Shown piece after piece: positions 22,401 to 24,341 of a stretch of DNA of 64,000 nt. Position 1 is the first letter of the stretch; every line of letters begins with the position of its first letter. Location: assembly GCA_032164245.1 (NCBI GenBank), contig JAVMKO010000155.1:205001-269000 (forward strand). Reading direction: 5' to 3'. The DNA comes from Sternotherus odoratus (lineage: Eukaryota > Chordata > Testudines > Kinosternidae). The notes under the pieces are model-generated. The model was given only the letters and a program-made list of their open reading frames with translations, did not search any database and was not told the DNA's origin. The translations under genes and the position numbers were made by a program.

Positions 22401-23831
22401 TGTAAAACTCAGCACAGGCCAGAGGAAAACAACAGTAGCCACTCAGACCTTATTATACATGAGAGCATCACCTTGGAAGAGACAAATTACACATGCCATG
22501 AGTGTGGGGAAAGCTTCAATGGGAACTCTGACCTTCTCACACATCAGAGAATCCACAGGGGAGAGAAATCCTACCCGTGCTCTGAGTGTGGGAAAAGCTT
22601 CAGTCAGAGCTCAAACCTTATCACACATAGGAGAATCCATACAGGTGAGAAACCTTTTAAATGCTCTGAGTGTGGGAAATGCTTCACTTGGAGTGCAAAG
22701 CTTATCACACATAGGAGAATCCATACAGGTGAGAAACCTTTTAAATGCTCTGAGTGTGGTAAATGCTTCACTCAGAGCGCACAGCTAATCACACATAGGA
22801 GAATCCATACAGGTGAGAAACCTTTTAAATGCTCTGAGTGTGGGAAAAGCTTCACTCAGAGTGCAAACCTTCTCACACATCAGAGAATCCACAGGGGAGA
22901 GAAATCCTACCCATGCTCTGAGTGTGGGAAAAGCTTCAGTCAGAGCTCAAACCTTATCAAACATAGGAGAATCCATACAGGTGAGAAACATTTTAAATGC
23001 TCTGAGTGTGGGAAAAGCTTCACTCAGAGTGCACACCTTATCACACATAGGAGAATCCATACAGATGAGAAACCTTTTAAATGCTCTGAGTGTGGTAAAT
23101 GCTTCACTTGGAGCACAGACCTTATCAGACATAAGAAAATCCATACAGGTGAGAAACCTTTTAAATGCTCTGAGTGTGGGAAATGCTTCACTTGGAGCAC
23201 ACAGCTTATCACACATAGGAGAATCCATACAGGTGAGAAACCTTTTAAATGCTCTGAGTGTGGGAAAAGCTTCACTCAGAGCGCAAACCTTCTCACACAT
23301 CAGAGAATCCACAGGGGAGAGAAATCCTACCCATGCTCTGAGTGTGGGAAAAGCTTCAGTCAGAGCTCAAACCTTATCAGACATAGGAGAATCCATACAG
23401 GTGAGAAACCTTTTAAATGCTCTGAGTGTGGGAAAAGCTTCACTCAGAGTGCACACCTTATCACACATAGGAGAATCCATACAGATGAGAAACCTTTTAA
23501 ATGCTCTGAGTGTGGTAAATGCTTCACTTGGAGCACATACCTTATCAGACATAAGAAAATCCATACAGGTGAGAAACCTTTTAAATGCTCTGAGTGTGGG
23601 AAATGCTTCACTTGGAGCGCAAAGCTTATCACACATAGGAGAATCCATACAGGTGAGAAACCTTTTAAATGCTCTGAGTGTGGGAAAAACTTCACTCACA
23701 GTGGAAACCTTCTCACACATCAGAGAATCCATACAGGTGAGAAACCTTTTGAATGCTTGGAATGTGGGAAAAGCTTCAGTCAGAGCTCAGCCCTTATCAG
23801 ACACAGAAAAATCCACAAAGGCCAGTGTTAG
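12827..23831 (+). CDS. KRAB C2H2 zinc-finger protein (4 coding exons)
   Basis: Predicted nuclear, DNA-binding transcriptional repressor of the KRAB-ZNF family, whose KRAB box classically recruits TRIM28 (KAP1). Coding exons 12827-12850, 13307-13433, 21754-21867 and 22225-23831 have consensus GT/AG borders and compatible phases, and total 1872 nt (623 residues plus stop). The start ATG opens 'MAAEEPVQ', typical for the family. KRAB A is residues 9-50, a KRAB-B-like/linker segment 51-88, and 16 C2H2 fingers about 177-619. The stop lies inside an LTR insertion. The A box has MQE where MLE is usual. An 8.3-kb, transposon-filled intron separates KRAB A from exon 3. The target sequence is unknown and the orthologue cannot be named from the sequence alone. 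Confidence 0.88.
13307..13433 (+). CDS. KRAB A-box exon of the intact KZFP
   Basis: Exactly 127 nt, the family's standard KRAB-A exon size, between 'ctctttcag' and 'gtaagta'. It begins 'GLVSFEEVAVYFSREEW', keeping the EV (DV) and EEW contacts, but the third contact motif MLE is MQE ('RDVMQENYENV'). It ends in phase 1. The disabled copy at 1678-1552 retains MLE. Confidence 0.92.
13441..14757 (+). other. KZFP intron, unique-looking part
   Basis: Intronic DNA between the KRAB-A exon and the first intronic transposon. No gene, RNA or repeat end was recognised. Confidence 0.5.
14766..15434. mobile_element. hAT (Charlie-like) non-autonomous element
   Basis: Ends 'CAGTGGTTCTCAAACTTTTT' and, inverted, 'CTTTGAGAACCA'. 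Flanks 'gctctatc' and 'gctctata' form a 7/8 target duplication. The GC-rich interior of 'ccagcagcccccc' and 'gcaggggc' units has no transposase. A truncated inverted relative lies at 54494-54939. Confidence 0.85.
15822..16092. mobile_element. Short DNA transposon (MITE)
   Basis: Begins 'aaggaaatgtctgtgct' and ends 'agtgtggacctgccctt', which are imperfect inverted ends around a coding-free 270-bp insert. The '(t)gtctacact' type of terminus is very common in turtle DNA. Confidence 0.55.
16779..17665. mobile_element. Tc1/mariner (Tigger-like) non-autonomous element
   Basis: Perfect ends 'CAGTAACTCCTCACTTAA' and its inverse 'TTAAGTGAGGAGTTACTG' are flanked on both sides by TA, the mariner target duplication. 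887 bp, no transposase frame. An inverted fragment of the same family is at 57411-57905. Confidence 0.88.
17666..18825 (+). other. KZFP intron, nothing recognised
   Basis: About 1.1 kb of intronic sequence with mixed composition and no supported gene or repeat end. Confidence 0.4.
19386..19413. repeat. (CA)n microsatellite
   Basis: Uninterrupted CA dinucleotide run of about 14 units. Confidence 0.95.
20534..20667. repeat. 67-bp direct duplication
   Basis: Two adjacent copies start 'aaccaggtcatagacacctt' at 20534 and 20601, nearly identical over their length. Confidence 0.85.
20700..21750 (+). other. KZFP intron, repeat-like sequence
   Basis: 21050-21580 has LTR-like phrases ('gggagggacccggacccacc', then 'ctccaact' units) but no ends I can define. 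The last 60 bases form the pyrimidine tract and acceptor of exon 3. Confidence 0.35.
21754..21867 (+). CDS. KZFP exon 3 (KRAB-B-like/linker)
   Basis: Encodes 'GFPVSKPDMISQLERGEEPW', the conserved segment following KRAB A in sauropsid and mammalian KZFPs, ending at a 'CAG|GTGGGA' donor in phase 1. The acceptor is a tandem 'cttcagcag', so splicing could start at 21751 instead, adding one residue (Ala) in frame. Confidence 0.88.
21868..22224 (+). other. Last KZFP intron
   Basis: 357-nt intron with GT at 21868 and a 'ttattttctctcttgcag' acceptor. It contains no other feature. Confidence 0.8.
22225..23831 (+). CDS. KZFP zinc-finger exon, 16 C2H2 fingers
   Basis: Reads in frame from the acceptor. 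An acidic/Ser-rich linker precedes 16 consecutive C-x2-C-x12-H-x3-H fingers of 28 residues. Helix residues -1/2/3/6 run G/S/D/T, QSNT, WAKT, QAQT, QANT, QSNK, QAHT, WTDR, WTQT, QANT, QSNR, QAHT, WTYR, WAKT, HGNT, QSAR. Linkers after fingers 1, 5 and 10 are HRGEKSY in place of HTGEKPF, and HTDEKPF occurs after 7 and 12. Fingers 5-9 and 10-14 are a duplication (420-bp offset, six differences). Translation ends 'HKGQC' because an LTR starts at 23826. Confidence 0.95.
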
Positions 23832-24336
23832 GACCGGACGACATTGTGACGAGCAATCACTAGGAAGTGCAGTTATGCTTCTAAGTCAACTCCAGGAGAG
23901 TGCATAATGGTGGTATTATCTGAGAATGACCTTGCTTTTATCTGTGTGTTTGGGAACCAGTTCCCAGCTGCATGAGTGTTTACCCCGTCTGTGTGAGAAT
24001 GAATGCGTGGGAAACCAAATGGGGAAACTAAGGCAGGACTGCGTAACCAACAAGTGCTGACCAATCAGTTTGTTGCTTGCTATTAATGAGATGAGTATGT
24101 ATGAGATGCAAATGAACATGGGTATATCTGTGCTGACACACCTGTTTGGGTTGGGCTTCCTCTTTGGGCTTCTCTGGACATCGCCCAGGCGTGTCAGTCA
24201 TCTTGTATTGCGGCTGTGCTGGCAGATAAGCCCCCCAGCACGAAATGCTGCCCCCTCCAATAAACTCACCACTTTCCAACTAGCCACCTGTGTGAGGCCT
24301 CATTTCTCTCGGCAACGAGATAAGCCCCCTGCAACA
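23826..24336 (+). mobile_element. Solo LTR terminating the KZFP
   Basis: 511 bp from TGTTAG to CAACA, i.e. TG...CA ends, flanked by a perfect 5-bp target duplication 'gccag' (23821-23825 and 24337-24341). An AATAAA lies at 24259-24264 near the 3' end, as expected of an LTR R region. No internal retroviral genes are present, so it is a solo LTR left by recombination, class unassigned. Its first six bases supply the last codon (Cys) and the TAG stop of the zinc-finger gene. Confidence 0.88.
24259..24264 (+). promoter_or_regulatory. Polyadenylation signal in the LTR
   Basis: AATAAA about 430 nt after the KZFP stop, the first such hexamer downstream. It probably ends the KZFP mRNA inside the LTR; this is inference. 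Confidence 0.6.
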
Positions 24337-24341
24337 GCCAG

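Follow-up and report, generated by a model that had tools for sequence, protein, structure and literature searches.

The window (the whole stretch of 64,000 nucleotides that was analysed) contains, on the + strand, a KRAB zinc-finger protein (KZFP) gene made of four coding exons, with the ATG at 12827. The finger exon encodes 16 complete C2H2 fingers with an 84-bp spacing, and KRAB lies upstream, the arrangement that defines a KZFP (KRAB 5' of a tandem C2H2 array). Comparison of the assembled protein with Pfam identified KRAB (PF01352, E 4.9e-24, 84.1 bits). The protein is 610 to 624 amino acids long, depending on the four acceptor choices. As a class, KZFPs recruit TRIM28 through KRAB and silence their targets, and they are usually studied for the repression of retroelements. 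The features of the gene and of the two mobile elements located at its 3' end are as follows.

12827..12850, + strand, coding part of exon 1, ATGGCTGCAGAGGAGCCAGTTCAG, followed by a gtaggg donor; the 24 bases are identical in the three other LTR-bearing copies
13307..13433, + strand, KRAB-A exon, between tctttcag and gtaag
21751..21867, + strand, KRAB-B-like exon, ending in GFPVSKPDMISQLERGEEPWVSDLYSSEKKVLPRAACT; acceptor 21751 or 21754, in frame either way
22225..23831, + strand, zinc-finger exon, 16 C2H2 fingers, ending in KGQC-stop; acceptor 22225 or 22264, in frame either way
23821..23825, + strand, left target-site duplication (TSD) of the LTR, gccag
23826..24336, + strand, solo LTR, 511 bp, TGTTAGGAC...CTGCAACA, with AATAAA in the sense of the gene
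23829..23831, + strand, present stop codon TAG, within the LTR (bases 4-6)
24259..24264, + strand, AATAAA in the LTR (LTR position 434), candidate poly(A) signal; GT-rich TGTGTGAGG about 25 bp on
24337..24341, + strand, right TSD of the LTR, gccag
24342..24436, + strand, remainder of the linker between fingers 16 and 17 and complete finger 17, now past the stop
24429..24436, + strand, left TSD of the hAT transposon, ccctacac
24437..26434, - strand, decayed hAT transposon, transposase antisense to the gene
26435..26442, + strand, right TSD of the hAT, cccaacac (ccctacac in relatives)
26444..26788, + strand, decayed fingers 18-21 and ancestral tail (..RENCKKCLD)

The element interrupting the finger exon displays the hallmarks of a solo LTR, namely TG..CA ends (TGTTAG..GCAACA), gccag on either side, a single LTR, and host sequence resuming immediately beyond it. 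As originally predicted, the open reading frame runs through the left gccag and stops on the sixth base of the LTR (..HRKIHKGQ-C-stop, TAG at 23829-23831). The present C-terminal residue and the stop codon are thus both supplied by the element, whose bases TGTTAG read Cys-stop. The resumption of the finger frame in register beyond the second gccag was also confirmed: after removal of the LTR and of one TSD copy (516 bp), the following finger has its first Cys exactly 84 bp on and is a complete C2H2 finger. At other sites, the same LTR is flanked by its own 5-bp TSDs (GCCAC, CCAGT, GTGAG, and CCTAC in 4/4 inspected unrelated copies), and four paralogous loci share this insertion and its TSD. 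Thus, the anatomy of the insertion is not due to chance. The LTR belongs to a dispersed family, with 2262 first-look candidates in the turtle's own genome (1.76 Gb), 40 of the 2262 being scored, at 95-100% identity. The occurrence of a stop as such is unsurprising since every phase of the LTR closes a frame within 27 codons (1, 12, or 27 depending on the phase, with 1 in the present gene). No match was obtained for one 24-base LTR motif searched against viral contigs, or for the window from 21000 to 28000 searched against Rfam at the gathering threshold.

A second element, absent from the original prediction, begins 95 bp past the right gccag and would alone stop the frame at TAA 24462-24464. 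This hAT transposon starts with CAGTGGTCC and ends with ..CTACAG; these ends are short and imperfect as inverted repeats, and the repeat search reported none. Its 8-bp TSD reads ccctacac on both sides at one paralogous locus, C20, and matches at 7/8 bases in the window. Removing 2006 bp (the hAT and one TSD copy) restores the finger period again, as deduced from the coordinates. Pieces of the transposase are 67-75% identical to the turtle hAT-type proteins P0170 and P0171 and occupy three frames; across four matches that overlap in part, ten in-frame stops were counted. The full-length relatives P0172 and P0174 contain PF05699 and PF14291; two hAT fragments scanned singly against Pfam gave no match. 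At 26413/26414, the element lacks about 560 bp that are present in other paralogues, a gap apparently common to the window, C150, C197, C48, and five sister loci.

Beyond the hAT, the remains of the finger array contain the following lesions, as judged by eye from three reading frames: a lost Cys in finger 18, TGA at 26561-26563, frameshifts in finger 20 and in the tail, and a lost His in finger 21. A C-terminus of the type ..C(N/E/K)(K/M)(C/S)LD was found in 21/47 turtle relatives (those with ends displayed). Because of these relatives, the tail ..RENCNKCLD preceded by four extra fingers would most likely be the ancestral end of the gene. None of 206 retrieved proteins contained TSGPQPF, the tail written by the hAT. 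The same junction between finger and hAT is present in a distant KZFP located on a large contig (L071, C11:4903901-4904700, minus strand), together with a hAT-written tail that is almost identical, and since this KZFP shares both, the hAT ending seems to predate the recent radiation of the cluster. At two other loci (L049 and L050, on C79 and C46), the junction lies between a finger and a more internal part of the hAT, and here too the hAT provides the stop, ..SSNVKGIN* (joint identified by eye). On this reading, that ending is another transposon-written C-terminus within the family.

An orthologue was also sought at the protein level. With the N-terminal portion of the finger exon as query, 50 proteins were retrieved, all with turtle species names (best identity 73%), which were paralogues with no clear orthologue among them. 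A search with the last fingers of the joined frame was uninformative (best 120 of 7930 candidates, top identity 70%). The empty sites compared below are paralogues of the same genome. Since fingers shuffle, finger 17 designates a positional match among paralogues, and the letters gccag are not kept at the paralogue sites. Seventeen LTR-free stretches were fetched: eight span the site, five have lost the site together with the upstream fingers, three have a broken junction or frame, and one gave no match. At the site, none of the eight spanning stretches has the LTR or any other insertion, and the hAT position is identical to the base in all of them. In five of them, the frame is open into the hAT-written stop PYTSGP(Q/S)PF(C/H)G, or is one codon longer (two cover the exon partly); in the other three, a stop or frameshift breaks the frame before that stop.

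The original prediction that the LTR truncated a longer KZFP was correct in part. The frame was indeed longer, as it stays open in the five LTR-free paralogues, but what the LTR removed was not a long array: LTR-free paralogues stop in the hAT, which had already shortened the gene. On the aligned sequences, the LTR shifted the stop 39 codons upstream, with a predicted loss of 40 residues (finger 17 and an 8-residue hAT tail) and the gain of one Cys. By the same comparison, the loss of fingers 18-21 is attributable to the hAT rather than to the LTR.

Neither element is nested in the other, and the window alone provides no order for the two insertions. The LTR might have inserted first, cutting off fingers 17-21 at once, with the hAT entering a dead 3' sequence afterwards. 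This order is very improbable. The hAT occupies the identical base in the eight spanning LTR-free loci and also in five LTR-free sister loci (C206, C4, C78, C91, and C56), a distribution that refutes it unless the LTR was precisely lost, TSD included, many times. Moreover, the LTR-bearing loci form one young clade inside the hAT-bearing set. In a midpoint-rooted tree of 21 paralogue rows of the 3' region (20 different sequences, the partial matches L034-L042 being left out), the four LTR-bearing loci were one side of a branch with support values of 97/96. Divergence of the hAT from that of the window, measured on aligned parts of 111-1982 bp, was 11-14% for the most distant loci (C48b, C48c, C20b, and C11), 6-8% for a middle group, 4.4% for C1, and 3.2-3.5% for the five LTR-free sisters; among LTR-bearing loci, it was 2.1% for C48 and 0.3-0.35% for C197 and C150. 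Copies elsewhere in the genome also argue against an LTR-first order, with identities of 81-90% for the hAT versus 95-97% for the LTR (40 candidates scored for each element). Since the hAT position is common to LTR-free loci and the loci rank by divergence as above, comparison of the paralogue sequences establishes that insertion of the LTR postdates that of the hAT and took place between the split of the C206 group and the split of C48. The CpG observed/expected ratios of the LTR (0.40) and of the hAT (0.15) had suggested a younger LTR, a dating superseded by that based on paralogues. The intactness of finger 17 was not retained as sole evidence for the order because too few bases are involved. 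The five sister loci (L043-L047) could not serve as the expected empty sites because all 16 upstream fingers are deleted. These loci are closely similar and, by eye, display one deletion with finger 17 and the hAT retained. The joining sequence resembles a junction of about 16643 to 24354 of the window, and the KRAB-B exon would have been removed as well.

The AATAAA hexamer was found at LTR position 434 in 8/8 LTR copies displayed, and it is a plausible poly(A) signal for the gene. The mRNA would likely end in the LTR and encode a 16-finger KRAB repressor with the C-terminus HKGQC. Nonsense-mediated decay is not expected when the stop sits in the last exon, and the mRNA should escape this process because the new stop lies there. 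Cleavage would probably take place just past the LTR AATAAA, leaving about 450 nt of LTR sequence as the 3' UTR. Alternatively, the LTR signal may be little used, transcripts ending in the hAT or downstream or splicing around the LTR. Additional AATAAA/ATTAAA hexamers are present at 24533, 24714, 24826, and 26020, but a later poly(A) site would keep TAG 23829 as the stop anyway and no frame-restoring splice pair was seen around the LTR (by eye only). We regard this alternative as unlikely.

Another alternative is that the LTR inactivated the gene, which was then carried along by duplication, the four LTR-ended copies being neutrally drifting leftovers and incipient pseudogenes. The LTR-bearing loci are the window (C155), C150, C197, and C48. 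In-silico splicing gave one open frame in all four copies, joining exon 1, KRAB-A, KRAB-B, and the fingers, ending in KIHKGQC*, and encoding 611, 611, 583, and 527 amino acids with 16, 16, 15, and 12 fingers, respectively. These open frames with intact splice sites argue against drift, as does the complete absence of frameshifts between the window and C48, for which 3.6-4.5 were expected from indels in flanking stretches (P 0.011-0.027). The distribution of changes between these two copies points the same way: they prefer contact residues (10/52) and mostly spare zinc ligands (1/52; Fisher p 0.008), as compared with 13/169 for other finger residues, 7/87 for linkers, and 4/113 for the pre-finger part. 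Finger-to-finger conversion could be an alternative source of the changes at contact positions. Drift is favored by the dN/dS ratio of about 1.1 for the finger exon of the window and C48 (8 synonymous and 36 nonsynonymous changes), by the loss of one Cys ligand in finger 1 of C48, and by the deletion of all 16 upstream fingers in the five sister loci. Ordinary amino-acid constraint is unsupported because of this ratio and because the other pairs have few changes (3 synonymous and 3 nonsynonymous for C197; 1 and 5 for C150). The absence of stops is uninformative (1.5 expected, P0 0.20), and the 92-codon N-terminal part of nine paralogues gave no clear constraint. On balance, the chances that the LTR-shortened gene is functional appear somewhat better than even, and neutral drift is the less likely, if still considerable, alternative.

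C150 is 99.6% identical to the window over 9.9 kb and could be its second haplotype, leaving three loci. A simple haplotype is less likely, although not conclusively so, because C150 was not among the best 40 scored matches to a probe from window 52000-52700. C197 and C48 show whole-finger differences relative to the window.

Together, the comparisons point to a KRAB zinc-finger gene with a 3' end successively rewritten by two mobile elements, a hAT and then an LTR, an explanation to which we assign a probability of about 0.85. On the paralogue evidence, the hAT entered a finger of an ancestral gene ending in ..RENCNKCLD, replacing this end by PYTSGPQPFCG*, and the distal fingers decayed. An endogenous retrovirus, now a solo LTR, then inserted with a 5-bp duplication into the last linker before the hAT, TGTTAG providing Cys-stop at the expense of finger 17 and the hAT tail. 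Duplication of the locus with the LTR in place followed, the four frames remaining open while the finger number shifted in whole 84-bp units. The LTR-ended proteins may still bind DNA and act via KRAB. It is a long shot that mobile elements provided successive selectable 3' ends, the hAT end persisting throughout a long radiation and the LTR end, its replacement, being favored in four copies with adapting contact residues. In the boldest form of this proposal, the truncated protein would putatively recognize the family of the LTR terminating its own gene, leading to feedback on its own locus. The sequential control of a KZFP stop by elements of two classes did not simply result in gene death, as four copies are open. 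The coexistence of LTR-bearing and LTR-free paralogues in one genome makes it possible to measure directly how a retroelement-written C-terminus affects expression, stability, and DNA binding.

LTRs ending zinc-finger transcripts and an LTR stopping a coding exon are already known. In mouse Zfp69, a 7.1-kb IAPLTR1a insertion in intron 3 traps splicing, resulting in a product devoid of KRAB and fingers (PMC2696593). As in our case, a KRAB zinc-finger gene is shortened by an LTR retrotransposon, Zfp69 acquiring an earlier stop and an earlier poly(A) site. In contrast to this strain polymorphism causing loss of function, the window contains a solo LTR in a coding exon, KRAB and 16 fingers are kept, and duplication of the locus followed. 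Human ZNF195 is likewise a zinc-finger gene with an LTR poly(A) site, an alternative site provided by a HERV-F LTR (PMC5462908); the site in the window is a candidate deduced from sequence, and the ZNF195 passage does not describe an LTR-derived stop. In bovine APOB, an ERV2-1 LTR in exon 5 is a segregating disease allele causing very early truncation (PMC4851415). Both APOB and the present gene have a coding-exon LTR with a TSD and a premature stop, but the TSD is 6 bp in APOB versus 5 bp here, and APOB is not a duplicated gene end. In the literature searched, mostly outside subscription journals, we found neither a solo LTR writing the stop of a KZFP nor a duplicated KZFP with its stop taken over by two elements successively.

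Additional features were observed in the window. Fingers 5-9 and 10-14 (22746-23648) look like two copies of a five-finger block, 420 bp apart, that arose by recent in-frame duplication. On the minus strand, 1550-2330 contains another KRAB-A exon and the exon 5' of it, which belong to a divergent neighbouring KZFP. By eye, the ends of 14770-15435 and 16795-17670 resemble the inverted repeats of DNA transposons.
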